Shown here one piece after another: positions 6,976 to 38,463 of a stretch of 58,615 nt of DNA. Position numbers and translations under genes: made by a program. The notes under the pieces were generated by a model, which ran no database searches, was not told where the DNA came from, and saw nothing but the letters and a program-made list of their open reading frames with translations. The DNA comes from Microbacterium salitolerans (GTDB lineage: Bacteria; Actinomycetota; Actinomycetes; Actinomycetales; Microbacteriaceae): assembly GCF_019720895.1 (NCBI RefSeq), contig NZ_JAHKSH010000007.1:1-58615 (forward strand), read 5' to 3'. Each line of letters starts with the position of its first letter. Within the stretch, counting starts at the first letter, position 1.

Positions 6976-8658
6976 ATGCAGACTTCTGACGCGGCGACAA
7001 ACGACACCACCAAGCACATCTTCGTGACGGGCGGTGTCGTTTCCTCATTGGGCAAGGGACTCACGGCAGCCAGCCTGGGCAACCTCCTCACGGCGCGCGG
7101 TCTGCACGTGGTCATGCAGAAGCTCGATCCCTACCTCAACGTCGACCCGGGGACGATGAATCCGTTCCAGCACGGGGAGGTCTTCGTGACCGACGACGGC
7201 GCGGAGACCGACCTCGACATCGGCCACTACGAGCGCTTCCTCGACATCAACCTGTCGCAGGCGGCGAACGTGACCACCGGCCAGGTGTACTCGCAGGTGA
7301 TCGCGCGCGAGCGCCGCGGCGAGTACCTCGGCGACACGGTGCAGGTGATCCCGCACATCTCCGACGAGATCAAGCGCCGCATGCGCCTGCAGGCCCAGGA
7401 CGACCCGAAGCCCGACGTGATCATCACGGAGGTCGGCGGCACCGTCGGCGACATCGAGTCGCAGCCGTTCCTCGAGTCGGCCCGCCAGATCCGCCATGAG
7501 CTCGGCCGCGACAACGTGTTCTTCGTGCATGTGTCGCTCGTGCCGTTCATGGGCGCGTCGGGCGAGCAGAAGACGAAGCCGACGCAGCACTCCGTGGCGG
7601 CCCTGCGCCAGGTCGGCATCCAGCCCGACGCGCTCGTGCTGCGCAGCGACCGTCCCGTCACGGACGGCAACATGGACAAGATCGCGCTGATGTGCGATGT
7701 GCCGCGTGAAGGCGTCGTCAACACGGTCGACCTGCCGAGCATCTACGACATCCCGTCGACGCTCAACGGCCAGGGCCTCGACGCGTTCATCGTGAATCGC
7801 TTCGGTCTCTCCACGGCCGGCGACGTCGACTGGTCGCGCTGGCAGAAGGTGCTCGACGCCGTGCATCACCCCAAGCACGAGGTCACGATCGGCCTCGTCG
7901 GCAAGTACATCGACCTGCCCGACGCGTACCTGTCGGTGACAGAGGCGCTCAAGGCGGGCGGCTTCGCGCAGGACACGAAGGTCAACATCCGCTGGATCGC
8001 GTCCGATCTGTGCGAGACGCCGGCTGGCGCCGCCGAGAACCTGGGCGAGCTCGACGGCATCTGCGTGCCCGGCGGGTTCGGCATCCGCGGCATCGAGGGC
8101 AAGCTCGGCGCGCTCCGGTTCGCCCGCGAGCAGGGCATTCCGACGCTCGGCCTCTGCCTCGGTCTGCAGTGCATGGTCATCGAGTACGCGCAGAACGTCG
8201 CCGGCATCGAGGGCGCGTCGTCGAGCGAGTTCGACCCCGAGACGGCGGCGCCGGTCATCGCGACGATGGCCGAGCAGGTCGAGATCCTCGAGGGCGGCGA
8301 TCTGGGCGGCACGATGCGTCTCGGGCTCTACCCCGCGAAGCTCGCGGAGGGGTCCATCGCCGCAGAGGTGTACGGATCCACGCAGGTCTCCGAGCGTCAC
8401 CGTCACCGCTACGAGGTGAACAACCGCTACCGCGACCAGATCGGCGAGGCGGGCCTGACGTTCTCCGGTCTCAACCCCGAGCTCGACCTCGTCGAGTTCG
8501 TCGAGCTGCCGCGCGACGTGCACCCGTACTACATCGCGACGCAGGCGCACCCTGAGCTGCGCTCGCGTCCGACCGAGGCGCACCCGCTCTTCCGCGGCCT
8601 CGTCGGCGCGGCCCTCGAGCGCCACAGCTCGAGCGAGCTGTTCGAGGTCGAGGAGTGA
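6976..8658 (+). CDS. pyrG: CTP synthase
   Basis: 560 aa. It converts UTP, ATP and glutamine to CTP. The N-terminal synthetase domain starts [16 protein letters not shown]. The C-terminal class I glutamine amidotransferase domain has the nucleophile Cys in [12 protein letters not shown] and the catalytic His-Glu in ATQAHPE. I used ATG 6976 ([20 protein letters not shown]); GTG 6973 and TTG 6964 are in frame just upstream and cannot be excluded. The stop overlaps the start of the NUDIX gene. Confidence 0.96.
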
Positions 8659-22725: not shown

Positions 22726-22799
22726 CGGGCTGTGGCGCAGCTTGGTAGCGCACCTGACTGGGGGTCAGGGGGTCGCAGGTTCAAATCCTGTCAGCCCGA
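22726..22799 (+). tRNA. tRNA-Pro, anticodon GGG
   Basis: The acceptor stem CGGGCTG (22726-22732) pairs with CAGCCCG (22792-22798), with A as discriminator and no encoded CCA. The anticodon arm CCTGA-CTGGGGG-TCAGG gives anticodon GGG, and the T arm holds GGTTCAAATCC. The 3' half forms attL of the downstream island, so integration rebuilt the end of the gene and left an intact tRNA. Confidence 0.95.
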
Positions 22800-22803
22800 C
22801 CGA
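22769..22803 (+). repeat. attL: left copy of a 35-bp direct repeat
   Basis: The 35 bases from 22769 to 22803 (end of the anticodon arm, T arm and acceptor of tRNA-Pro plus CCGA) recur exactly at 38429-38463. Identity at the 3' end of a tRNA with an integrase directly downstream marks this as the attachment site. Confidence 0.93.
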
Positions 22804-22981: not shown

Positions 22982-23221
22982 ATGGACACCGAACACCGCC
23001 CGACCGGCAACCCTTGGGGCCTCGAACCGCTGCTCGACGTCGGCGAGCTCGCCGCCTATCTGGGCGTGCCCGTCTCCACGGTCTACGACTGGCGCACCCG
23101 TGGCCTCGGTCCGCGGGCGTATCGCTTCGGGAAGCATCTGAAGTTCGCGCTTTCGGACGTGCGGATCTGGATCGAGCAGCAGCGCGACCCCGAACCGCCT
23201 GCACCGGCGGGTGGGCGGTGA
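22982..23221 (+). CDS. Excisionase-like helix-turn-helix protein
   Basis: 79 aa from ATG 22982 (MDTEHRPTGNPWGLEPLLDV). The core LLDVGELAAYLGVPVSTVYDW is a MerR/Xis-type winged HTH. It ends 4 bases before the integrase ATG used here, so the two genes are almost certainly co-transcribed. Its likely role is to bend DNA at the att sites and steer the integrase towards excision; it could also regulate int. Confidence 0.85.
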   Translation: MDTEHRPTGNPWGLEPLLDVGELAAYLGVPVSTVYDWRTRGLGPRAYRFGKHLKFALSDVRIWIEQQRDPEPPAPAGGR

Positions 23222-23225
23222 TCCG

Positions 23226-24407
23226 ATGAGTCGCCAGCGTTTGACCATCGGCACCTTCGGGGAGATCGGCCACCTTGCGAGCCCCAACGGACGTGTCGTC
23301 GCGCGCGCCCGCTACCGCGACTGGAACGGCAAGACGCGGCTCGTCCAAGTGACCGGGGATACACGGAAGTCCGCGGAACGGGCGTTGAAGGCGAAGCTTG
23401 CCGACCGGAGTCTGTTCCAGCCGTCGTCCTCGGTGCTCACCCCGGACAGCCCGTTCCCGGACCTGGTCGCGTACTGGCTCGAAGACCTCGAGCTCGAAGA
23501 CCGGCTCTCCAAGCGCACGCTGCAGCTATATGAGCGGAACATGCAGACGCTCGTTCTGCCGGTTCTCGGGAACTTGACTCTGCGGGAGATCGGCGTCGCC
23601 CGCTGCGACCACTTCCTCAAGCAGCTCGCGAAGCAGAGCTACAACCGCGCCAAACAGGCCCGCGTCGTCCTCCGGCTCGCACTCGGCCTCGCCGTCAGGC
23701 ACGAGGTGCTGTCGCGGAACCCGATGGATCACGTTTCGCGGCTGCACCGGCCGGCGTCCACGCCGAACGCGCTGACGCCTGCGGAGGTTAACGAGATCCG
23801 CACAGCGATCGCGTTCTGGGAAGCCGGACGCTCGATCTCCGGTCCGAAGCCCGACGGCCAGCTCGGGGCGATCGTCGAGGTCATGCTCGGCACCTCCGCC
23901 CGCATCGGCGAAGTCCTCGCCATCCGACGCCGCGACATCGACGTCACCAGCCCGACCCCGTCCATCCGGATCACCGGCACGATCGTCAGCCACCGCGGCG
24001 AGGCGACCACACGACAGGACCACCCGAAGACAGCGAAGTCGCGGAGGACCGTGGCGATCCCGTCGTTCACCGCAGAAGCTGTAAGGCGCCGCATGACACG
24101 GCTGGAAGACTCGTCGCTCGACGCCCTGCTGTTCTGCAGCCGCGAGGGAACTCCGCTGACCACGAACAATGTGCGCCGCCAGCTCCGGCACGTGATGGAC
24201 CTCGCGGGGATCACCGGCGTCACGCCTCACATGTTCCGCCGCACGGTCGCGACCGCGATCAACGAGCAGGCCGGCGTCGAGCTCGCCGCCGAACTGCTCG
24301 GGCACACGGACCCGAAGATCACGATCCAGCACTACATCCGCCGCAGCGAGATGGTGAACCCGGTGACCGCCGAGATGCTGGAGCGGGCGTTCGCGAAGGA
24401 ACAGTGA
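23226..24407 (+). CDS. Tyrosine integrase of the island
   Basis: 393 aa from ATG 23226 (MSRQRLTIGTFGEIGHLASP); a GTG at 23211 is in frame. An N-terminal arm-binding strand region (RVVARARYRDWNGKTRLVQV) and a SAM-like core-binding domain precede the catalytic domain: Arg in TSARIGEVLAIRRRD, His-x-x-Arg in PHMFRRTVATAIN, His in LLGHTDPKITIQ and the nucleophile Tyr in QHYIRRS. Its position next to attL at a tRNA 3' end is typical. It should recognise the 35-bp core. Confidence 0.93.
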   Translation: MSRQRLTIGTFGEIGHLASPNGRVVARARYRDWNGKTRLVQVTGDTRKSAERALKAKLADRSLFQPSSSVLTPDSPFPDLVAYWLEDLELEDRLSKRTLQLYERNMQTLVLPVLGNLTLREIGVARCDHFLKQLAKQSYNRAKQARVVLRLALGLAVRHEVLSRNPMDHVSRLHRPASTPNALTPAEVNEIRTAIAFWEAGRSISGPKPDGQLGAIVEVMLGTSARIGEVLAIRRRDIDVTSPTPSIRITGTIVSHRGEATTRQDHPKTAKSRRTVAIPSFTAEAVRRRMTRLEDSSLDALLFCSREGTPLTTNNVRRQLRHVMDLAGITGVTPHMFRRTVATAINEQAGVELAAELLGHTDPKITIQHYIRRSEMVNPVTAEMLERAFAKEQ

Positions 24408-25069: not shown

Positions 25070-26593
25070 CTACACGAAATGCTCTTCCGCGGCGCCGCGC
25101 AGCCCTAGCTTGGCGATCTCTGGCCGAAGCTCGACACAGATGTCCTCCGGGTTCGGCCCGATGAGCACACGGTCCATCAACGCGTTGTTCAGCTGCTTGC
25201 GATCTGCGGGAGCCGCTGCGAGGTAGCGGTCGTAGGCGTCTTCAAGGAGATCGAGCGATTCCGCCAAGTGCTTCGTCTGGAATACGACATCGTCGCTCAG
25301 GCGCTCCTCCTCGGCCTCGGTACGGGAGAGCGAATCGGACAACTTGCGCTGCTCCTTGACGAACAGGTCGCGAGGCAGGGCGTCGGAATAGTAAGCCTCG
25401 AGGAGCTTCTCTTGGCGCAGCCGGATCTCTTGCGCCTGTACGGCGAGGTCTGATCGCTTCTGCTCGGAGCCGGATGCTTCCGCCGCGAGCCGATCCTGCC
25501 AATGCAGCTCGATCTCGTTGCGTCGGTGAGCGGAGATCTGGATCCGTTCGTAGGCGTCCTCGACGCGACGCTCCACGTCGCTGATGCGCAGTGCGCTCTG
25601 TGTGCATCGCGGTGTGCCGTTCTGGCGGCCGGAGCAGACGAAGTAGTCGTAGATGCGCCCGCTCTTCGAATGAGCGTTGTGGACCAGCAGCCGGCGTTGG
25701 CATTTGAAGCAGCGGACCGTGCTCTTGAGGTAGTGCGTGTGGATGCGGCTGCGTTCACCCTGACCCCGAGAGGTGAGGAAGCGTTGGACGGTATCCCAGG
25801 TCTTCGCCGGGACTAACGGCTCGTGGCTTCCTGCATGCTGCGCGCCGTTCAGCGTGACGATGCCCTTGTAGTACGGGTTCGTCAGGACACGATGAAGGCT
25901 CGCGACTGTCAGCGCCGCGGGGGAGCGGGAAGCAGTCGCCCGAGTCCGAAGTCCTCTGTCCGTGAGTGCCGTGGCGATCTGAGCGACGCTCCACTCGCCG
26001 GTCGCATAGGTGGCGAATGCCCAGGCGATGTGTGGCGCTCGTTCGTGGTCGAGTTGGATCGCTCGATACTCGCGTCCGTCCTCGGTCTGGCGGCGTACGT
26101 TGAGGTAGCCGATCGGCGCCCGGCCCGGTGTTCCGCCCTGGATGGCTTTCTGCCGCATGCCCTTCATGACCTCTTGCGCGAGGTTGCGCGAGTAAAACTC
26201 CGCGATCGAGGCCATGATCCCATGCAGAAGCACGCCGTTCGGCGTGGTGTCGATGTTCTCGGTGCTGGATATAAGTCGTGCACCAGTGTCACGAATTGCT
26301 TGCGTGAGTGCGATGTCATCGGCTCGAGATCGCGCGAGACGGTCAAGCTTATGCACGATCACGTAGTCGGCGGGATGGTCTCCCAGGTAGGCGAGCATCC
26401 GTTGAAGCTCCGGGCGGTTCGTACTCCGTCCAGACTGACCGCGGTCAACAAACTCAGCGGAGATGAGAGCCCCCAGCCCGTGTGCCTGCTTCCTGTTCGC
26501 CTCGCGCTGGGCCGGGATCGAGAAACCGTCTCGCTCGCCGTTTCGCTCCGCTTGGCGCGCAGTGGATACGCGGATGTACGAGACGGCCGACAG
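25070..26593 (-). CDS. Large serine recombinase (start codon uncertain)
   Basis: Up to 507 aa. The resolvase domain contains YIRVSTARQAERNGERDGFS with the catalytic Ser of RVST, then FVDRGQSGRSTNRPELQRML and KLDRLARSRADDIALTQAIR. The recombinase domain (GYLNVRRQTEDGREYRAI..) is followed by a zinc ribbon (CFKCQRRLL .. FVCSGRQNG .. RC) and a coiled coil, so all LSR domains are present. The frame is open upstream to a TGA at about 26657, but there is no ATG, GTG or TTG before the catalytic Ser; the first ATG (26398) lies after it. I tentatively use CTG 26593 (LSAVSYIRVST). A 5' frameshift from the ATG at 26652 is the other explanation. It may drive a nested element. Confidence 0.7.
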   Translation of the reverse strand: MSAVSYIRVSTARQAERNGERDGFSIPAQREANRKQAHGLGALISAEFVDRGQSGRSTNRPELQRMLAYLGDHPADYVIVHKLDRLARSRADDIALTQAIRDTGARLISSTENIDTTPNGVLLHGIMASIAEFYSRNLAQEVMKGMRQKAIQGGTPGRAPIGYLNVRRQTEDGREYRAIQLDHERAPHIAWAFATYATGEWSVAQIATALTDRGLRTRATASRSPAALTVASLHRVLTNPYYKGIVTLNGAQHAGSHEPLVPAKTWDTVQRFLTSRGQGERSRIHTHYLKSTVRCFKCQRRLLVHNAHSKSGRIYDYFVCSGRQNGTPRCTQSALRISDVERRVEDAYERIQISAHRRNEIELHWQDRLAAEASGSEQKRSDLAVQAQEIRLRQEKLLEAYYSDALPRDLFVKEQRKLSDSLSRTEAEEERLSDDVVFQTKHLAESLDLLEDAYDRYLAAAPADRKQLNNALMDRVLIGPNPEDICVELRPEIAKLGLRGAAEEHFV

Positions 26594-26773
26594 CGGCGAG
26601 AACGCAGTATGGATAGAAGTTGGAACGTGGAGGGTTTTAGAAGATGAGTCATTCAGTCAACGTTGGCGCTCCCACGCCCAAGGAGCGGAAGGGCACGTGC
26701 ACTGGCTCAAGCGTGTCGTCTGGTCGCGGCGATCCACATGCTGGAGAATCAGAGGGATGTCTGACGAACTGTA

Positions 26774-26803: not shown

Positions 26804-26950
26804 GTGACAAGCTCATCTCTCGCAAAGCCACCTTCAGCGAACGAGCAGAGCGCCCGTCGCCGGCCGTTCTCGTGCAACGCAAGCCATGTCTCTGCCGTAG
26901 CCAACGGGCGATGGCATCACTGGCCAAAGCGGGTCGGGAGACAGCGATGA
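26804..26950 (+). CDS. Possible 48-aa leader peptide coupled to the helicase gene
   Basis: GTG 26804 has the best ribosome binding site in this part of the island (TAGGAGG, 7 bases upstream). It opens a 48-codon frame (VTSSSLAKPPSANEQS..) ending at TGA 26948-26950, overlapping the helicase ATG as ATGA. The peptide is basic and low in complexity and matches nothing I know. The signal-quality start and the 4-base overlap suggest that it is translated and couples to the helicase, perhaps as a control device. It could also be chance. Confidence 0.4.
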   Translation: MTSSSLAKPPSANEQSARRRPFSCNASHVSAVANGRWHHWPKRVGRQR

Positions 26951-29900
26951 GAACCGCATCCGTATGGGCGACGGAAAGCGCTGTCGGCAAGAACATCATC
27001 AGACAGTTGTTGGTTCCGGCCCACGACTCACTAATCCTCAGCGAAGACGAAACAGAGACCGCCCGCAGCCAATACGGCGAATGGCCCACGGCTTCACCAG
27101 ATCAGACTCAACCTGATGGCGGAATAGCTGCCGCACTACCGATCGACAAGGCCGAGGGCGTGATCGAATGGATCGGCGAGAGGGACCCGATCCCTGCAGA
27201 GAAGATCCTCGACTCCTTTGAGGGCGCGATAGGGTTCACCGCCTACGACCGACCACACAGCCTGCGCCGTCCACAGATCGGTGCTCTGCACTCCATCCTT
27301 GGCTACCAATCATCAGGCCTCACTGAGCCAGGAACCGTGGTCATGCCGACGGGGACCGGCAAGACAGAAACTATGCTCGCGTGGCTGGTCGCGCGACGCC
27401 CGGAACGAGTCCTCGTAATCGTTCCCTCGTCCGCGTTACGGGAGCAGCTCGCGTCGAAGTTCGAGACGCTCGGCATTCTTCAACAGGAAGGAATAGTCGG
27501 CCCAGGTGCGCTCAGACCACGAGTGGGACGAGTCTCTGGCCGATTCGACAGCGAAGAAGATGCCGCCAGCTTCGCAGCTGCCTGCAACGTTGTCATTGCG
27601 ACTCCCAGCGCTATCAACGCCTCAAGCGAATCGGTACGCCGGGCCTTCTTCGCGGGGTTCACGCATCTTCTGGTCGATGAAGCACACCACGCTCCAGCTC
27701 GCACCTGGACCGAAATCATCCGCGCCTTCGCTGACCGCCCTGTTCTTTTGTTCACTGCGACTCCCTATCGGCGTGACGGACGCACGCTGCCGGGACGTGT
27801 GATCTTCCGCTTTCCGCTACGAGAGGCGCAACGAGAGGGCTACTTCAGCAAAATCGACTTCACTGCCGTCCTCGATCTCGATGACGACGACGAGGCACTC
27901 GCTAAGGCCGCGATCGCCCGACTACGAAGTGACCTGGCCGCAGGACATGAACACCTCCTGCTAGCACGTGTCGACACGAAGTCGAGAGCTGACGAAGTCC
28001 ATGCGTTGTATTCGCGGCTAGCACCGGACCTCGCTCCGAAAGTGATCTATGACTCGCTTGGAGTAAGAGATCGAACCGCAGCTATACGAGCGATGCGCAA
28101 CCGTTCCAGCCGCGTGATCGTGTGCGTCGATATGCTCGGCGAGGGCTTCGATCTGCCGACACTTAAAGTCGGCGCGTTCCATGATGCGCACCAGTCTCTG
28201 AGCCCTATGGTCCAGCTCATCGGGCGGTTGGCAAGGACATCGTCTCCAGTTCCGATCGGCGAAGCGAGCGTCTTTATACGCCAAGACCCTAAACAAGCAC
28301 TCTCTCCACTCCGGTTCCTCCTCCGAGAAGACCCGGATTGGAACAAGGTCCTCAGTGACATCACCGAGCGTGCGACCGAACAAGCTGATGAACTCAGCGA
28401 CTTTGAAGCGTCGTTCATCGAGACACCGCCCGATGTTCCCGTCGGCCTCTTGGAGCCAAAAATGAGCGCGCGAGCGTTCAAGGCCACAAACTTGGATTGG
28501 GATCCACTCGCGGCGCGGCGCATTTATGGAGACAAAGTCTTGGACGGACTTGTCAGCGTCAACCAAGACAACAGCATCGCATGGTTCGTAATCGAATCGA
28601 TCACTGACCTTAGATGGGGCGATATTCCTTCCATCCGTGCCACTGACTACGCACTCATCGTCCTGTTCCTCGATCGGTCTCAGGGCCTACTCTATGTTCA
28701 CTCATCTGACACGAAGCACGGCCTGGATGACCTCGTGGAGGCGGTTCTTGGGCACGATCCCATACCAGTCAACGGATTTGACACGTTCAAGGTGTTCGCT
28801 GGACTCGACCGTCTCGTGCCAACGAACATTGGCCTACTAGACGCCCGGGATCGCGATAAGCGGTTCTCGATGCACGTCGGAAGCAACGTCGAGACAGCGC
28901 TGACGGAGGCAGAGCAGAGCAACAAGACCAACACCCACGTCGCTGCCAAGGCATTCCAGGACGGCGAACGAGTCACCATATCCGCGGCACTTTCGGGCAG
29001 ATTCTGGTCGATGAGGGCTGCATCCAACCTCGTTGAGTGGCGTCGTTGGTGTCACGACCGAGGTACGAAACTTCGCGATAGCTCCGTTGACGTCCGCTCT
29101 CTGTTCCGCGAGATGATCATCCCGATCGACGTGAAGGAAAGGCCTCCTCACCCGTTCCTGGCGGTCGAATGGCCGTGGGATCTGTATCTCGGGGCAGGTA
29201 CTTCGTCGCGCGTCGTGTACGACGGCTCGGGCGTTCTTCTTACCGACGCGGATTTGAGAGTGGACGACTACGGCACCGTCGGTCATCTTCTCTTCTCGGT
29301 AGTCACCCCAAACTGGGAACTCGCGTACGAAGGACGGTTCAGCGAGAGAGGTATTCACTACCGCGCAGTAGCCGACGATGCCACGGTCGAAGCCGGACGC
29401 GGGACCAGTTCACCACTGTCTACGTGGTTGAACAACCACAAGCCGACGCTGCTGCTCTCTGGTGATCGGCTGATTACGGGAGATGACCGGCTTCTTGAAC
29501 CGCGCACCGAACTCGCCCCATACCCCCGGGAGAACTTGCGCACTCTCGACTGGGCAGCAGGTGGCGTGAACATCACGGTCGAGTCGCAAGGCCGTGAGCG
29601 CAGACAAGACTCGATCCAGGCATTCATGGCCCGACACCTCTCGGAGAACCAGGCCTTCGATATCCTCATCGACGACGACCGATCTGGTGAGGCGGCCGAC
29701 CTCGTTGGGCTCCGAGTTGAGGGCGGGAATCTTCACGTCACCCTCGTGCATTGCAAGTATTCATCGAGACCAGAACCCGGATCGCGACTTGCCGATCTCT
29801 ACGAAGTGTGCGGGCAAGCGATGCGAGGAGCTCGGTGGCGAGACAAGGCCGCACTGCCGCTTCTCGAACACCTTGATCAGCGGGCCGGCGGATACGCACG

Positions 29901-30120
29901 CAGCTTCGGCGGTTCGGCTTTCGAGATCGGCGATCGAGAGGTGCTGTTCAAGGTCAGACAGCAAGCGCCGTTGCTGTTCCCACGCTTCACGACGATCATC
30001 GCCCAGCCTGGTCTGAGCATCGAGGCCGCAGGCGCCGAGCAGCTTCGACTCCTCGCGGGTGCCGCTTCATATGTTCAAGCGGTCACCAAAGGCGGATTCG
30101 AAGTGTATGGATCGCGATGA
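26947..30120 (+). CDS. SF2 DEAH-type helicase with C-terminal PD-(D/E)XK-like region
   Basis: About 1057 aa from ATG 26947; ATGs at 26872 and 26911 are in frame. Motifs: Walker A MPTGTGKTE (133-141), DEAH (244-247) in LLVDEAHHAP, SAT-type FTATPYRRDG (from 269), and motif VI QLIGRLAR (423-430). A middle region of about 450 aa is unassigned. Near the C-terminus, GEAADLVGLRV (about 914-924) and TLVHCKYSS (about 932-940), followed by RLADLYEVCGQAMR, look like a PD-(D/E)XK nuclease core with Asp918 and Lys937, the usual Glu being replaced by His935. This is a helicase plus putative nuclease, typical of DNA-targeting defence proteins. It overlaps the next gene by 4 bases. Confidence 0.9.
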   Translation: MRTASVWATESAVGKNIIRQLLVPAHDSLILSEDETETARSQYGEWPTASPDQTQPDGGIAAALPIDKAEGVIEWIGERDPIPAEKILDSFEGAIGFTAYDRPHSLRRPQIGALHSILGYQSSGLTEPGTVVMPTGTGKTETMLAWLVARRPERVLVIVPSSALREQLASKFETLGILQQEGIVGPGALRPRVGRVSGRFDSEEDAASFAAACNVVIATPSAINASSESVRRAFFAGFTHLLVDEAHHAPARTWTEIIRAFADRPVLLFTATPYRRDGRTLPGRVIFRFPLREAQREGYFSKIDFTAVLDLDDDDEALAKAAIARLRSDLAAGHEHLLLARVDTKSRADEVHALYSRLAPDLAPKVIYDSLGVRDRTAAIRAMRNRSSRVIVCVDMLGEGFDLPTLKVGAFHDAHQSLSPMVQLIGRLARTSSPVPIGEASVFIRQDPKQALSPLRFLLREDPDWNKVLSDITERATEQADELSDFEASFIETPPDVPVGLLEPKMSARAFKATNLDWDPLAARRIYGDKVLDGLVSVNQDNSIAWFVIESITDLRWGDIPSIRATDYALIVLFLDRSQGLLYVHSSDTKHGLDDLVEAVLGHDPIPVNGFDTFKVFAGLDRLVPTNIGLLDARDRDKRFSMHVGSNVETALTEAEQSNKTNTHVAAKAFQDGERVTISAALSGRFWSMRAASNLVEWRRWCHDRGTKLRDSSVDVRSLFREMIIPIDVKERPPHPFLAVEWPWDLYLGAGTSSRVVYDGSGVLLTDADLRVDDYGTVGHLLFSVVTPNWELAYEGRFSERGIHYRAVADDATVEAGRGTSSPLSTWLNNHKPTLLLSGDRLITGDDRLLEPRTELAPYPRENLRTLDWAAGGVNITVESQGRERRQDSIQAFMARHLSENQAFDILIDDDRSGEAADLVGLRVEGGNLHVTLVHCKYSSRPEPGSRLADLYEVCGQAMRGARWRDKAALPLLEHLDQRAGGYARSFGGSAFEIGDREVLFKVRQQAPLLFPRFTTIIAQPGLSIEAAGAEQLRLLAGAASYVQAVTKGGFEVYGSR

Positions 30121-30380
30121 GACTTCGAGGCTCTCAACGGATTGCCGTAGGAGAAGGGCTTTCGACAAGTTCTTCGTTGTCAACAGGCGACGTATGGTAC
30201 GACGCCCGCTACGAGGAAACGCGTACGCCGATCCGTTCTCTCGATTTGGTGCGCCCCGAAGGCGGGAAAATTTGTCGAGTTCGCCGATGGTTGGTGGTCA
30301 TCGCTCGTGAGGGATCGTGGTTGGGTAAAGCCGTCGGCAACTTGTTCGACCGGGGAGAGCTAGAGCATGGGTGCCGATGA
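30117..30380 (+). CDS. Small protein (87 aa) linking helicase and NTPase genes
   Basis: ATG 30117 overlaps the helicase stop (ATGA), and the stop at 30380 overlaps the next gene by 14 bases, so the frame is tightly held in the operon. The protein starts MRLRGSQRIAVGEGLSTSSS, carries a RRWLVVIAREGSWLGKAVGN segment that could be one amphipathic or membrane-associated helix, and ends in a charged tail. I find no known motif. The double overlap is the main evidence that it is real and works with its neighbours. Confidence 0.65.
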   Translation: MRLRGSQRIAVGEGLSTSSSLSTGDVWYDARYEETRTPIRSLDLVRPEGGKICRVRRWLVVIAREGSWLGKAVGNLFDRGELEHGCR

Positions 30381-33300
30381 CGTGAACGCGCGCGAGAAGG
30401 AGATCGCGGTCGTCAATCCTTACGCCGGTGGTGGTGGTGGGACTGTCCTTGCTCACCGAATCGCAACTAGCTACCTCGCCGACGTGCTGCTGGGGGCGGG
30501 GCGACCTGAGACTGACGAGCTTCCTGTCGTCAGAGTCGCGTTCCAGACGAGTCCAACCGACCCCGTCGATGATCTACGGGTAGAGGCCGAACGCAATGGA
30601 GAAACGGTCGTCGTCCATATCGCGGCTCGACGTGCCCCCCAGTTCACCCGCAGCCATTCGAAGACCGCCAAGCTGGTCAGAACCCTCATTGATCAGGTCG
30701 AGAGGTTGGGGGAGGACGAGCGTGCATACGTCGCGGTCGCCGTCGCAACGGTGGCCTCTTCGACGAAGGAAGTTCAGCTCCTCGCTTCCCTTGCACGAAA
30801 TAGTGCGACCGAGGCAGACTTCTACTCACAGGTCCACACGCCCGAGCGACACTCTGGCTATGCAAAGCGATATGAAAACCTGACCCAGCTAGTAGCGCAG
30901 GCGCGGTCGAGAGCTTCTGCCGACGAACTTCGGGGAATCGTCTGGTCACTCCTCAACCGCCTATGGATATTGAGTTTTTGCGTCGAGTCCGACGACGAAA
31001 CTGACTGGGTAGAAATCGGAAACCGGCTCAATCCGCTCGCCCGGCACGGACAGAAGGGGACCGATGTCCGCGATGCCCTATACTCGGCCGGCTCTACTCA
31101 GTTTGATCAGCAAGGCACTGTAGTTGACCGTGCCTTGCTCCGACGCAAGTTCCACTCTGTTCTCGCAGCAGACGCCGGCCGATCTAAGGATGCGTGGGCG
31201 CAGCTCAGCCTGGAACAGGAATCCGCAAGGGTTGCCGTTCGCCACGATCTGGCAGACGGAACCCAACTGCCACGAGCGAAGCTACAGGCGGACATTCAGG
31301 CCGCGATCGCTCACGCAGGCAAGACACATGGTGCGCTCCTAGTTACAGGTGAATCCGGGATAGGCAAGAGCGCGGTGACCCTCTCGTCGGCAGCAGCGCT
31401 GGCGGACAGCAACAGCGATTTTCAGTGCGTAGTGCTCAATTTGCGACGGACCCGCGACAGCGTTGCGGTACTGTCGGCGGATCTCGGAATGTCTCTTACT
31501 GACGTACTCGGGGAGATGTCTGCACCTGATCGCGTCCTCATCATTGACGCCGCCGATGCCGCCAATGAAGGGCGTGCACCACTCCTCCGAGAACTTGCGG
31601 CAGCGACACATGCAGCAGGAGTCGGAATCGTGCTCGTCGCCGCCGACACGGCGGTCAGCGAAGCCTCCAACACGCTCCACGGCATATACCCCGACCCACA
31701 GCGATTCGAAGTGCCTGGACTCGATGACAACGAGCTTCGCGCCGTGGGAACCAAGGTGCCAGCGATCGCAGGTGCCCTGCGGAACATCCCCACCAAATCG
31801 CTGTTTCGGCGACTGGCGATCATTGACCTCTTGGCGCGTACCGGTTCCGCAGTCACCAAGCCGCTGGCCGACTGGGACTGTCTCGAGCTGATTTGGCAGG
31901 ACCTCATAGGCCGTGCAGTGGGTCAAAGCTCGGCGGCAGCGAGAACCGCAACTCTCTTGTCAATGAGCGAGTCAGCACTCGGCCTTCCGAACCCCGAAAA
32001 GGCCTACTCAGGCGCCGACTACGCAGCGCTCGACTCTCTCCGGGCAGATCGGCTGGTCGCGCCAGCGAATCTAAGAAGGCCCGCGCCGGAGTTTGCCCAT
32101 GACGAGGTCCGTCGCTTCGCAACCGCTGTCTGTCTAGTGCAGGCCCCTTCCCTGAGCGGAACTCTGAAGACATCCGGACCAGCGCGATGGTCGATGTCTG
32201 CCGCGAAGCTCGCATGCGAGGGCAGGCTCTCTGGCGCAAACGATCCCCATGCTGAACTCGCGATACAGATCGCCGATTTTGACGCTCTTGGAGAGGAAGC
32301 CAGCGTCCGCTGGAAGGACGTGCCGCTCGAAGCGGTACTTGAGATGCCGAACTCCTATGCTCTTCTCCGCCGCATGATCGACGAATCCGGCACAGATACG
32401 CAGAACGTTCTCGCGAACATTGTCCGAGTCGTTTCGCTGCATCAGCGACATGACAACATGATCGACGTCCTACGAGGTGAGCCGGTTGTGCGCTTGCTCG
32501 TTGAGGAAACAGAGCAACTGTGGCACCGTGATAACGAGACCTACCGTTTGGTGTCAGACTGGCTCAAATCCTCCCTACTGGAACAGTTGTCTGCCGGCAA
32601 CTCCACTCGTCTCGCGCTTCGCAGAGTCCTGCTCGACCATTGGCATAAGCATTACCCGCAGGCTGACCGGTCGAGCGCGGCACAGGAGCTTGAAGGCGAC
32701 GCTGTGTTTAACGTCTTCCAAGGTCATACAACAATGAGAAGGCGCCGGAGCAAGCTGAACTGGCAGATCACCGAAGAGCGCTTCGTTGAGCTGCTGGCTC
32801 TCCTTGGCCCTGACATCAACGACGAAACACGTGCATGCCTCCTGGAGGTAGCAGCCGAGTCCCCATCGCGCCTTCAACCCGCTGTCGACTTCTCCTGGAG
32901 TGCCTGGGGGCTTGGGATGCACGATCCTCAGCTTCTCCTCACCCTCACTGAGTCCTACTACATCGATCACGAGGGCAGTGGCGGGTGGAGACACTGGGAC
33001 GGCATTCGCGACCACCAACGGCACGGCTCTTACAAACTCAGCAACCACATGTATGGCCCGTTTTGGGTCCTGACTCGGTTCTGCTCACACGTGGATTGGA
33101 TTCCAGTGGTGAACAGAATGCTCAACCATGCAGCGAACATCCGGTGCCGGACAGAGGATGGATCAGGATCGATCGATCCCGGTTCGAAGGTGACACTAGC
33201 GATCGACGGCACCGAACGAACCTACGTCGGCGACGGCAACGTATGGGGCTGGTACCGCGGCAACACAAACGGACCATACCCATGCATGAGTGCACTACAG

Positions 33301-35349
33301 GCAGTGGAACGATGGGTGGACCACTCGATCCGCGATGGCGCAGCTATTGGTGATGTTGCAACCGCATTGCTGAGCGGATGCGAAAACCTTGCAATTCCCG
33401 CGCTCCTCCTGGGGGTCACCATTCGTCACTTGGGTGACGACGCTACGGTACTCGATCGATACCTCGTGGAACCTCTTGTCTGGCAGCTTGACCTGAGCCG
33501 CGCCACTCACGAAGCCGTTGGAATCATGCTGGCGGCTGATGATGGAATCATCAATCCGGAACGGCGCAAGTGGCAACTGCGCGATGTCGCTGCTTTTCTT
33601 GTGTTGAACGCCGGTGCGGAACGCCGTTCAGAACTAAGGGACCTGGGTCAGCATCTCATAGCGAACTCCGATCGTGCCGGTATCGGTGAGTCAACCGTCA
33701 TCCGTTGGGCGGCGACACTTGATGCGGACAATATGGAGACTGAGCCTATAGAGGGCGGCCTTCTTGTCTCGTTCAACGAGCCGAAGGCTATTGAAGAAGA
33801 GCTTGCTCCGCTACGAGCTGACCTCGGTCGCGGCAGCCTCCTAATCGGGCTTCAGAACAAGTACTGGATTCCTGCACGGGAGCAGAAGGACGGCTGGGAG
33901 CCGCCAACGCCGGGTGAGATTGCGGAGGACCTATCAGAGGTCAAAGATCTGTATGAAAATCCACCCGAGTTCGCCGCATACGACCTTCCCCTCGTAGTCG
34001 CCCACGTCTCAGCCGCAGCAGTGCGCAGCGCAGCGGCTGGCAACATTGAAGCGTTCGGTGTGAACGCGTCCTTCGCGATCAATTGCACCCTCGGCATTCT
34101 CCGGGCGTACGCGGATGCGTCAACAAACGACGTCGACGCGCTTGAGTACGAGGACGACATAGGGACCCGAGGTGCAGCGGCATCAGCGGTGCCGTATCTG
34201 CTGCTCTCCGAGCTGACTGAACAACTCGCAATCGCAGGCGTCATCATGGACGATATCGAGACAACAGTGGCGACATTCGGCCAACTCGCGGCGACCGACA
34301 CTTGCCTCAGTTTCGCACGCTCTTGCGATGCCATCTGGGATCATCCTTGCTCCGGAAGCCCCTGTATCCATACGACTGCCTACAAGTGGGTGCTCGATCT
34401 CGCTGCGCTCTGCGAAGTGCCTGACTTTGACGACGAGCTTCAAGAGCCGCTGCCTAGGGAGCCCATCACGGAGAACATCGCAGATCGGGTTTCCGCTGTT
34501 GAACCAGGAAGGCTCGACACCTCACGCTTGAGTGCGACGATTCGTGCCGCTGGACACGCCGCCATCTCGAAGGCGTGCATCGCGAAGAGCGCTCAGAGCG
34601 ATCTCAAGAGGCTTCTGCAGGCTCAAGCGATCGCGATGGTCGTCCAGGAGACGTCCGAAGGCGTCCACTTCATTGACGACCATGGCGCTGAGACTGTGAG
34701 CGCAGCCCGAGCATTACTCCAGAACAGATCACTTTCAGACGAGAATCTGTTGCTCTCGTACGTAACAACGCTGATGCCTGCCAGTCAAGTCTTCAGTGCG
34801 TTTCTGCGGGATCTGGCAGCCGTGGGAACCGAGAGCCAAGAACTTGCTGATTCAGCTAAAGAGCTGTGGCCCACCTTGTTGGGGCACGTGCTAAACGAAC
34901 TAGACGCGAACAAAGACCTCTATGGGCGAGACGATACCTTCGGCGGCTATGCCCTTGGACATCTTCTGCCAAGCCATCCGCTCTCAGCCCGGGGCCTGCA
35001 CGAAGAGTTCGGACGTTCGACTTTCGATTGGGTGCATCCTGAAGTACTGGTGGAGTTCATTCCTCGGTGGCTGCCGCACGCCGCAGGCAGAATGCCAGCG
35101 CTACTTGATCTTGTCCGTTTTCTGCGTCGACTCCCCATAGACACCCAACTCGGCGAAGGTCTGAACTGGCTGAGCGATATGTGCTTCTCGCGGCCGGATC
35201 GTCAGATCACTTCCTCCGAGGTGCTTGAGGAGTGGCTGGTAAAGGTCAAACACGAAGTTGACGTGCGAGGAAACAGCGCTAGCTGGCTCAACTTCGTCGA
35301 CCGTCTCGTGTACGCGGGAAACACGGCGCTTGCAGGGTTCTCGCGTTGA
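30367..35349 (+). CDS. Giant P-loop NTPase (1660 aa), putative defence sensor
   Basis: ATG 30367 follows GGGGAGAG at 30353-30360. Residues 1-100 have a Gly-rich start (NPYAGGGGGTVLAHRIATSY) and a strand pattern DPVDDLRVEAERNGETVVVH then IAARRAP, which looks like a restriction-endonuclease fold whose catalytic Lys is replaced. Walker A is GESGIGKS (328-335) and Walker B is RVLIIDAADA (from 389), with a downstream FAHDEVRRFA typical of STAND/AAA-like NTPases. The last 1000 residues are mostly helical, like an alpha-solenoid sensor. I recognise no named family. Together with the helicase and the 87-aa protein it probably forms a phage- or plasmid-defence complex; this is inference from architecture and location. 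Confidence 0.85.
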   Translation: MGADDVNAREKEIAVVNPYAGGGGGTVLAHRIATSYLADVLLGAGRPETDELPVVRVAFQTSPTDPVDDLRVEAERNGETVVVHIAARRAPQFTRSHSKTAKLVRTLIDQVERLGEDERAYVAVAVATVASSTKEVQLLASLARNSATEADFYSQVHTPERHSGYAKRYENLTQLVAQARSRASADELRGIVWSLLNRLWILSFCVESDDETDWVEIGNRLNPLARHGQKGTDVRDALYSAGSTQFDQQGTVVDRALLRRKFHSVLAADAGRSKDAWAQLSLEQESARVAVRHDLADGTQLPRAKLQADIQAAIAHAGKTHGALLVTGESGIGKSAVTLSSAAALADSNSDFQCVVLNLRRTRDSVAVLSADLGMSLTDVLGEMSAPDRVLIIDAADAANEGRAPLLRELAAATHAAGVGIVLVAADTAVSEASNTLHGIYPDPQRFEVPGLDDNELRAVGTKVPAIAGALRNIPTKSLFRRLAIIDLLARTGSAVTKPLADWDCLELIWQDLIGRAVGQSSAAARTATLLSMSESALGLPNPEKAYSGADYAALDSLRADRLVAPANLRRPAPEFAHDEVRRFATAVCLVQAPSLSGTLKTSGPARWSMSAAKLACEGRLSGANDPHAELAIQIADFDALGEEASVRWKDVPLEAVLEMPNSYALLRRMIDESGTDTQNVLANIVRVVSLHQRHDNMIDVLRGEPVVRLLVEETEQLWHRDNETYRLVSDWLKSSLLEQLSAGNSTRLALRRVLLDHWHKHYPQADRSSAAQELEGDAVFNVFQGHTTMRRRRSKLNWQITEERFVELLALLGPDINDETRACLLEVAAESPSRLQPAVDFSWSAWGLGMHDPQLLLTLTESYYIDHEGSGGWRHWDGIRDHQRHGSYKLSNHMYGPFWVLTRFCSHVDWIPVVNRMLNHAANIRCRTEDGSGSIDPGSKVTLAIDGTERTYVGDGNVWGWYRGNTNGPYPCMSALQAVERWVDHSIRDGAAIGDVATALLSGCENLAIPALLLGVTIRHLGDDATVLDRYLVEPLVWQLDLSRATHEAVGIMLAADDGIINPERRKWQLRDVAAFLVLNAGAERRSELRDLGQHLIANSDRAGIGESTVIRWAATLDADNMETEPIEGGLLVSFNEPKAIEEELAPLRADLGRGSLLIGLQNKYWIPAREQKDGWEPPTPGEIAEDLSEVKDLYENPPEFAAYDLPLVVAHVSAAAVRSAAAGNIEAFGVNASFAINCTLGILRAYADASTNDVDALEYEDDIGTRGAAASAVPYLLLSELTEQLAIAGVIMDDIETTVATFGQLAATDTCLSFARSCDAIWDHPCSGSPCIHTTAYKWVLDLAALCEVPDFDDELQEPLPREPITENIADRVSAVEPGRLDTSRLSATIRAAGHAAISKACIAKSAQSDLKRLLQAQAIAMVVQETSEGVHFIDDHGAETVSAARALLQNRSLSDENLLLSYVTTLMPASQVFSAFLRDLAAVGTESQELADSAKELWPTLLGHVLNELDANKDLYGRDDTFGGYALGHLLPSHPLSARGLHEEFGRSTFDWVHPEVLVEFIPRWLPHAAGRMPALLDLVRFLRRLPIDTQLGEGLNWLSDMCFSRPDRQITSSEVLEEWLVKVKHEVDVRGNSASWLNFVDRLVYAGNTALAGFSR

Positions 35350-36415: not shown

Positions 36416-37933
36416 CTACTTGCGCTTTCGCTTTGGCATCGTGAAGAGGAATGCTGCCTCGCGGCGCTGGTTCAACCGTTCCCCAATGGCGGGGCTGATG
36501 GCCCCGACCAGTCCGAGTGTCGCACCCGCGAAACCTGCCATACCACCCGCTGAACCCACGACTAGACCCATGCCCCCAGCGATGACCGGCACGGTGAGAG
36601 CGAGGCTGCGAGACGTTCCCATGCGCTTGTTCAACACTCGCGAAGCTTGTTCGATGTCGGAGGCAGCAGCGCGGATGGAGGAGATCTGCGAACCGAAGTC
36701 TGGGGCGCTTTCCATTGCGATGCGCACTCGCACTCGAAGGTCTTCCACTGCGTCTTCAGCCGACAGCATGCGCGCGAGGTCCTTCGCTCCGAGGTTCGCT
36801 AGCGAAGGAACGTCTGCCCACAGTGCTGTATTCGCAAGACTGGACCTATTGCTATCTCTGCGCTGGAGCATGCGCGCTTCGAAAGGCGAGGCGGCAACGT
36901 ACTCCGATCCGAGCACGTCGGCTACTGCTAGCCGCCGCTCCGTGCGCTGGAGATAGTTCGCTAGAGCGGTGTCTGACTCCTTCTTGATCCAAGCTGAATA
37001 GTCGTGGTGCGGGTCATAAGACTGGAGCATCCGAAAGCCAATGGATCGGTCAGCCTCAGTGATCGATTCAGGATCCGTACGGCCGTAAAACCACATACCC
37101 GGGCTGTGCTCGATGTCATCCACAGCGTTGATGAACAAGACCTCACGGGCGCTTGGTCCTTCCACCACGAGCTGAGACCGGACGAACCGCACCAGGGAGT
37201 CGTTAGCGAGAGCAAGTTCGGTCGCGTCGTGGATCATTCTGCCTCCGATGAACTCGGCGACGCTGTCAGGCATTGGAAGCACGTGCCCGCCGCGCAGAAG
37301 GTGCTGAAACTCCATTTCCTCGATAGCGAGCGTTCTCACCCTCCGCGCCGTCGGCGTGGATCGAAGCGCGCGGAGCAGACTATCTGGGTAGAGAACATGG
37401 TCAGCGAGAAGCATGGTGCGTCCGATGAGATTGTTGACTGCCAGCTCCTCATTCCAGAGGATGGTCCGGCGCGGCATCAGTTGACGGAGCGAGCTTGACG
37501 TCTTCCACGCGTCCACCGCAAACGACGCAATCGCTTCGATGTATCTGTCCTTCAGGGGTTCATCGCTTTCGGGGAGCGCAGTGAGTTCGCGCAATAGAGC
37601 AACTCGTGTGCGTCCTAACTCCTGAGCCGTCGCTGGGTCATCGTCGGGCGTGGAGGATGCCACAGCTCGGTCGAACGCGGTAGCTCCCAGAGGTCGCTGG
37701 GTAGGCCCGTCCGGCGGCAGGGTGAGTGGGGTGCCGGCAGGCATCATCGAAGGGATAGCAGTCCGCGCTAGCTGAACATCCGGACTCAGACTGATGAATT
37801 CATCGTCGTCAGGCTTGACAGGCGCTCCTGGTGGATGACGTGGTGCTGCGAATCGCTTGTGGCATAGACGATACGTCTTTCCGGACCCGCACCAACATGG
37901 GTCCTGACGGTCGAACGGAGCAAGCGGATTCAC
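36416..37933 (-). CDS. SEC-C motif protein with hydrophobic C-terminal tail
   Basis: 505 aa from GTG 37933 (VNPLAPFDRQDPCWCGSGKT). The N-terminal SEC-C zinc motif DPCWCGSGKTYRLCH is complete. A long helical region follows (about 70-430). Near the C-terminus a Gly/Ala-rich hydrophobic stretch of about 40 residues (VIAGGMGLVVGSAGGMAGFA ..) could form two membrane helices, before a basic MPKRKRK end. An ATG at 38035 would give a longer, less natural N-terminus. SEC-C proteins recur in genomic islands; the function here is unknown. Confidence 0.8.
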   Translation of the reverse strand: MNPLAPFDRQDPCWCGSGKTYRLCHKRFAAPRHPPGAPVKPDDDEFISLSPDVQLARTAIPSMMPAGTPLTLPPDGPTQRPLGATAFDRAVASSTPDDDPATAQELGRTRVALLRELTALPESDEPLKDRYIEAIASFAVDAWKTSSSLRQLMPRRTILWNEELAVNNLIGRTMLLADHVLYPDSLLRALRSTPTARRVRTLAIEEMEFQHLLRGGHVLPMPDSVAEFIGGRMIHDATELALANDSLVRFVRSQLVVEGPSAREVLFINAVDDIEHSPGMWFYGRTDPESITEADRSIGFRMLQSYDPHHDYSAWIKKESDTALANYLQRTERRLAVADVLGSEYVAASPFEARMLQRRDSNRSSLANTALWADVPSLANLGAKDLARMLSAEDAVEDLRVRVRIAMESAPDFGSQISSIRAAASDIEQASRVLNKRMGTSRSLALTVPVIAGGMGLVVGSAGGMAGFAGATLGLVGAISPAIGERLNQRREAAFLFTMPKRKRK

Positions 37934-38428
37934 CTGCTCAGGATATCCGGCTAAGGAACTAGCCCTCTGCGCCGTCGCGCCGCACGAGGGGGACATGCAA
38001 CACCTCTCTCGTTTTCGAGAGCCGTCCCGAAGCAAAACGCGTTCTGGCCTTGACCACAGCCTTGCACTTCCCGTGGAGTGGCTGGCTCAGTCCCAAAGCA
38101 CCCCCGCGATGCGCCAGCCGTTGGTATCGGTGGCCTGGCGGACATCACTGCGTCTGCGCGTGCCGTAGAACGACCGCCACGAGAACCGCGAAAGCAGGCG
38201 GACTCTCAGTGATCCCCACGCCATCCGGATCCCGCTCGAACCCGTCAATTTTTCTTGGCACGAGTCCGACACCCGACCCATCAAGAACCCACCTCAATCA
38301 CCCACCAAGAACCGTCACCAACCGGCTACACTCGGACTAAGCGAACCACCCGGTTCCCTGTAAGCACTAGGGAATCCGCGAGTTCCCGAGACGTTCGGCG
38401 GAGACCGGAAATCGACCGGATCCTCCAA
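37934..38428. other. Island right-end non-coding region
   Basis: 495 bases with no convincing gene. A perfect hairpin CTCTCG-TTTT-CGAGAG lies at 38006-38021, and TTCCCT/AGGGAA arms lie at 38354-38359 and 38369-38374, about 55 bases from attR, where integrase or Xis arm sites are expected. On the minus strand, fragments such as GWRIAGVLWD (stop at 38087) and a neighbouring frame with GFERDPDGVGITE look like decayed coding DNA. Confidence 0.5.
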
Positions 38429-38463
38429 GGGGTCGCAGGTTCAAATCCTGTCAGCCCGACCGA
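38429..38463 (+). repeat. attR: right copy of the 35-bp direct repeat
   Basis: Identical over 35 bases to the 3' end of tRNA-Pro at 22769-22803. The flanking bases differ on both sides (A/G before, T/G after). It lacks the 5' tRNA half and so marks the right border of the island. Confidence 0.93.

Follow-up and report, generated by a model that had tools for sequence, protein, structure and literature searches.

Do three consecutive open reading frames (ORFs) on an island of Microbacterium salitolerans, encoding a helicase, an 87-aa product and a giant nucleoside triphosphatase (NTPase), constitute one antiphage defence system? The question is raised by positions 26,804 to 35,349 of contig NZ_JAHKSH010000007.1, whose whole length of 58,615 nucleotides was analysed and is called here the window; the genome carrying it measures 3.46 Mb. 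The initial annotation had proposed a single three-gene system with overlapping genes, matching no named system. We reach a different answer: the island, about 15.7 kb long and inserted at a tRNA-Pro(GGG) gene, probably carries two independent defence cargoes, a helicase-nuclease and a single-gene STAND sensor related to Avs4. The integrase-bearing island itself is confirmed by the tRNA gene, a 32-base repeat at its other end, a tyrosine integrase and a lower G+C content (about 0.60 within 26-38 kb against about 0.70 outside). Defence, put forward at the outset as an inference, still appears the best explanation for both large genes.

The larger gene was correctly described as a STAND-like P-loop NTPase of 1660 aa. 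The structural model of this protein (P0003) covers residues 1-1125 with a predicted local distance difference test (pLDDT) score of 87.9, and within these residues displays an N-terminal effector, a central NTPase and a C-terminal helical sensor, in this order. The NTPase alignment, used in a genome-wide scan, identified 74 loci. The 58-row alignment used below left out 17 of them (the Pseudoclavibacter copy, proteins with trypsin or other N-termini, and broken, cut or short ORFs). Walker residues G328, G333, K334 and D394 are kept in all 58 aligned members. The first Foldseek match of the model was the complex of Escherichia coli Avs4 with a phage portal (8dgf), at E 1.4e-18, about 11 orders of magnitude ahead of the next entry (2.1e-7), and family profiles show a collinear similarity to Avs4 over NTPase and sensor. 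The PADLOC Avs4 model matches 11 of 28 NTPase relatives, over part of the model. Together, fold and profiles indicate a STAND NTPase distantly related to Avs4.

Several observations weigh against this kinship. The PADLOC Avs4 model does not match the giant NTPase at an E threshold of 0.1, and we therefore call the protein Avs4-like and do not file it as Avs4. The root-mean-square deviation of the superposition on 8dgf is large (16.5), so that the domain arrangement is unmatched. Segments of the Avs4 hidden Markov model comparison are individually weak (i-Evalues 1.5 and 0.008; 0.00091 and 45), and replication factor C slightly outscored Avs4 when the mixed profile A2 was used. A survey of 248 genomes of the order with the PADLOC Avs4 model returned no match, but 14 control genomes returned none either, so this survey is uninformative; among 321 genomes of another class it gave 14 weak partial matches (best 1.2e-6), which were not used as Avs4 references. 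In the PADLOC check of the window proteins only partial matches were obtained, to the candidate PDC-M54A for the NTPase and to helicase core models for the helicase. The statement that no named system is matched thus stands as far as the PADLOC Avs4 model misses the giant NTPase, and falls in that this protein resembles Avs4.

What does the N-terminal domain do? A nuclease-like fold had been suspected, and residues 22-270 of the model indeed resemble the Cap4/LmuA/HamA nuclease fold, with LmuA, HerA-DUF, Cap4 and HamA as fold neighbours. In the alignment G22-G25, Q60, D68 and D69 are conserved in 57/58 members, each with one gap. The position of the catalytic acid, 86, is A or G in 57/58 and that of the lysine, 88, is R in 58/58, so that (A/G)-x-R takes the place of the usual (D/E/Q)-x-K throughout the aligned family. 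The Cap4-like assignment comes from the fold; the non-canonical pair weighs against it, as does a search of PDB sequences with the profile of the domain, which returned nothing relevant. The modelled domain would thus have a Cap4-type fold devoid of the usual catalytic pair, the catalytic positions being those suggested by model and alignment.

Effectors are exchanged within the family. STAND immune proteins are built by exchanging N-terminal effectors while NTPase and sensor stay conserved, and the sequences of three relatives (L009, L042 and L088) place a trypsin in the effector position, with Trypco2 as neighbour (annotated at L009; Pfam 3.9e-18 at L042 and 2.4e-26 at L088). At L042 (8905-9258) and L088 (2-775) the Trypco2 gene lies directly before the trypsin-STAND gene. 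The most probable of the alternatives concerns chemistry: the nuclease-fold domain of this STAND sensor would be catalytically dead or use a new chemistry, killing being due to another activity or to partners. The family-wide loss of (D/E/Q)-x-K beside the preserved glycines, Q60 and aspartates speaks for it, as does the swap for trypsin in relatives. Nuclease activity is still allowed, however, by the conserved D68/D69 and by the resemblance in fold to the active nucleases LmuA, Cap4 and HamA, and the catalytic positions come from a model and an alignment, not from a solved structure; we regard this alternative as possible but clearly not favoured. Somewhat more doubtful still, and offered tentatively, is a wider proposal: the giant protein may be the founding member of an Avs4-like type, rich in actinobacteria, whose effectors are exchangeable (Cap4-fold, or trypsin plus Trypco2) and in which the Cap4-fold effector lost its canonical residues family-wide, keeps an invariant G4-Q-DD-R set and kills by a reaction undescribed for STAND sensors.

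Are the NTPase and the helicase partners? Two genes on one strand, 246 bp apart, that have stayed together, about 98% identical, in an island passed on to another genus could form a two-gene system built on that island, in which the NTPase senses and the helicase-nuclease executes. The survey of NTPase loci points elsewhere. A helicase is present at only one of the 74, L029, which is the same island transferred; at least 3.6 kb of upstream sequence is available at 60 of these loci (57 on both sides) and less at the other 14. At L027, L028 and L031, which hold relatives of 70, 66 and 55% identity, about 10 kb of sequence is available on either side and contains no helicase, and L030 (61%) cannot tell because only 0.27 kb lies upstream. 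Of the 398 genomes searched in the bacterial family, five carry the NTPase and four the helicase; the two that carry both are the window genome and Pseudoclavibacter G073. Anywhere in the genome, a helicase accompanies the NTPase in 5 of 50 cases; these 50 are a subset of the genomes from which the 74 loci come, and the distance was worked out for two of the five. One of them, Streptomyces F001, carries the NTPase and a 51%-identical helicase on opposite strands, about 19-20 kb apart; this loose second co-location speaks for a pair and against independence. Conversely, no NTPase was found at five plasmid helicase loci searched, nor in the annotation of six more. A search for a conserved protein partner, small ones included, within 6 kb of the NTPase found none: the clusters obtained consisted of overlapping ORFs or of chromosomal genes of Streptomyces, and no cluster held more than 9 loci. 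There is hence no general linkage of the NTPase to the helicase, and a two-gene system appears unlikely.

The helicase looks like a restriction-type module of its own. The ORF, the starts of relatives, which favour ATG 26947 within the longest ORF (26872-30120), and Pfam core matches (ResIII 1.3e-21, DEAD 5.6e-15, Helicase_C 1.5e-9) bear out a DEAH helicase of 1057 aa. Position 26804, read by eye, starts a 48-codon ORF in another frame and not the helicase; a good ribosome-binding site lies ahead. This small ORF (26804-26950, + strand) overlaps the helicase ATG at TGA/ATG and is a possible leader. The announced PD-(D/E)XK-like core at the C-terminus gains some support: E915, D918, H935 and K937 are invariant in 12/12 and 9/9 aligned helicases, the lysine being that singled out in the initial annotation, so that an E-x2-D...H-x-K pattern appears to be fixed across a widespread helicase family. 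The helix-strand-strand-strand-helix-strand order in the C-terminus of the model fits this fold, at a mean pLDDT of only 65.5. No Pfam nuclease match was found in 12 members of the family, the C-terminus retrieved nothing relevant among PDB sequences, and no PADLOC, NCBIfam or Pfam family spans the whole protein. Foldseek best matches were RadD and XPB (1e-13) and SauUSI (2.6e-11), and the matches examined correspond to helicase cores. The VIA fold lists rank whole-model matches, and other folds are possible for the termini of the helicase or the NTPase.

Helicase relatives occur in 158 plasmid records from widely differing bacteria. In viral contigs, a single-sequence search found no relative; among the matches listed for the alignment, just L126 and L127 extended over the greater part of the protein, and a search with the C-terminus gave 7 loci. 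In Klebsiella, annotated HsdM and HsdS genes directly precede the relative, and in Vibrio they lie further upstream. No HsdR is listed in the stretches of these two plasmid records (L207 and L211), where the relatives may act as restriction motor. Other contexts include an AddAB-like cluster in Phaeobacter and a GMT island in Acinetobacter; the Rhodococcus relative has no obvious partner. Hachiman, BREX, DISARM, Cas3, DpdF and PbeA were rejected as labels, the PADLOC matches spanning only parts of the helicase core. For Hachiman, the HamB model matches the core only (1.1e-5) and no HamA was found among the seven island proteins scanned.

How would the two cargoes work? The superfamily-2 translocase with its C-terminal E-x2-D...H-x-K core would travel along incoming DNA and cut it. 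For the NTPase, analogy with Avs4 suggests that the long C-terminal helical array keeps the NTPase inactive and recognises a single conserved phage protein, the portal being the likeliest. The next event would be NTP binding, which would lead to oligomerisation and bring the N-terminal Cap4-like domains together; once assembled, these might degrade DNA or, because the usual catalytic pair is missing, act on another substrate, and the infection would be aborted. Actinobacterial STAND proteins include regulators, and the NTPase might instead regulate the island or its host, an AfsR/SARP regulator being annotated in L015. With a closest fold that is Avs4 and not a regulator, a mobile-island location and effector-type N-termini, we judge this quite improbable.

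We finally return to the 87-aa ORF. It is present, begins at an ATGA junction and overlaps its neighbours by 4 and 14 bases, as first described. Compared with the Pseudoclavibacter copy, this segment is about 79% identical and contains two one-base indels. Substitutions at codon positions 1/2/3 amount to 10/6/5 and 14/8/8 in the ORF, against 5/4/20 and 23/10/54 in the flanking genes. Within this lower-identity segment (about 29,867-31,066), third-position changes thus make up 20/29 and 54/87 in the large genes and 5/21 and 8/30 in the ORF. No match to the product was found in L027, L028, L030 or L031, nor in PADLOC, Pfam or NCBIfam. Because of the two indels and the lack of third-position excess, we conclude that the ORF is spacer and not a gene; the overlaps are artefacts, uninformative on an operon. 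A functional three-gene operon including the 87-aa protein, for which the overlaps and the ATGA junction had spoken, is hardly credible in view of these indels, codon positions and empty searches. The trio, looked for at the 74 NTPase loci, does not recur outside the same island.

The features of the island are collected below.

Table. Features of the tRNA-Pro(GGG) island in the window (positions of the window)
Feature	Position	Strand	Remarks
tRNA-Pro(GGG) (island attachment site)	22726..22801	+	ARAGORN; 3′ end repeated at 38430-38461
Left attachment (att) core, 32 bases	22770..22801	+	Exact match to right core
Small helix-turn-helix (HTH)/excisionase-like protein	22983..23222	+	Label by reading of the sequence alone; copies 62% identical in G073, 68% in L076
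Tyrosine integrase	23211..24407	+	Pfam Phage_integrase 7.9e-22; copies in G073 and in L076, both 87% identical
Large serine recombinase	25070..26398	-	Pfam Resolvase 7.6e-17, Recombinase 2.2e-12; resolvase N-terminal part extends upstream of the ORF call
DEAH superfamily-2 helicase, 1057 aa, PD-(D/E)XK-like core at C-terminus	26947..30120	+	Longest ORF from 26872
Spacer, 246 bp, between helicase and NTPase	30121..30366	+	Holds spurious 87-aa ORF 30117-30380
Avs4-like STAND NTPase, 1660 aa	30367..35349	+	Cap4-like domain ~22-270, NACHT-type NTPase ~271-735, helical sensor to C-terminus
SEC-C motif protein, 539-aa ORF	36416..38035	-	Pfam SEC-C 4.9e-7; island right end; 97% identical in G073
Right att core, 32 bases	38430..38461	+	Perfect copy of the tRNA-Pro(GGG) 3′ end

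Besides the two cargoes, the island encodes a small HTH protein, two recombinases and a SEC-C protein. It is mobile: Pseudoclavibacter sp. AY1F1 (G073, the same as L029), of the same bacterial family, carries a near-identical copy, about 97-99% identical outside 29,867-31,066. Within about 29,867-31,066 identity drops to 79-90%; this segment runs from the end of the helicase gene through the spacer into the Cap4-like domain, most of which it covers, as if exchanged. Compared with the Pseudoclavibacter copy, the start region of the serine recombinase (26399-26652, - strand) is out of frame, and the enzyme may be impaired. A scan for promoters and terminators gave a signal no greater than in shuffled sequence.

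The integrase (87%), the HTH protein and the att core recur in Microbacterium halotolerans (L076), together with an NTPase only 27% identical; L076 6832-14950 looks like one element type with different cargo. In L027, tRNA-Pro(GGG) (7421-7497) lies immediately upstream of the 70% NTPase relative, and in L067 the att core, at 7542 and 23940, is found on both sides of a 27% relative. These three cases show that members of the NTPase family have landed at tRNA-Pro(GGG) repeatedly, one element carrying different members.

The supposed three-gene system is thus dropped as a candidate. In its place, an actinobacterial family of very large STAND sensors would belong with Avs4, even if PADLOC (2023) makes no such call for the protein of the window, and the 74-locus set presents varied effector domains on a conserved sensor. 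The family offers a testable ligand, the portal, and a testable oddity, a Cap4 fold with A/G-x-R.

With respect to known systems, the island helicase shares its helicase core with the superfamily-2 helicase-nucleases RadD, XPB-Bax1, SauUSI, HamB and HsdR; it differs from HamB- and HsdR-type systems in that no HamA, HsdM or HsdS was found among the island genes searched. For the NTPase, the PADLOC candidate PDC-M54A (PDLC04702) is of similar length and matches residues 64-404 at 7.4e-10; this match spans only the N-terminal domain and the start of the NTPase, and 5 of 28 relatives are matched. The trypsin-bearing loci L009, L042 and L088 share trypsin and Trypco2 with the conflict systems described in PMC7159879, whereas the island NTPase has no protease. 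They may also be likened to the nuclease-protease pairs of Avs1, Hachiman and Lamassu in PMC12799240, except that the gene before L088 encodes Trypco2, with no match to a metallo-beta-lactamase-type nuclease. PMC12931631 describes a tripartite STAND plan and, for Avs1-4, nuclease effectors cleaving phage and host DNA after recognition of terminase or portal. From Avs4 (AVAST type 4; PDB 8dgf, E. coli Avs4 with the phage PhiV-1 portal) the island protein may differ at its N-terminus: in VIA, 8dgf aligns only from residue 271 of the model, so the N-terminal domains are not matched, residues 22-270 being closest to Cap4, LmuA and HamA. Both proteins follow the same order of effector, NTPase and long helical sensor.
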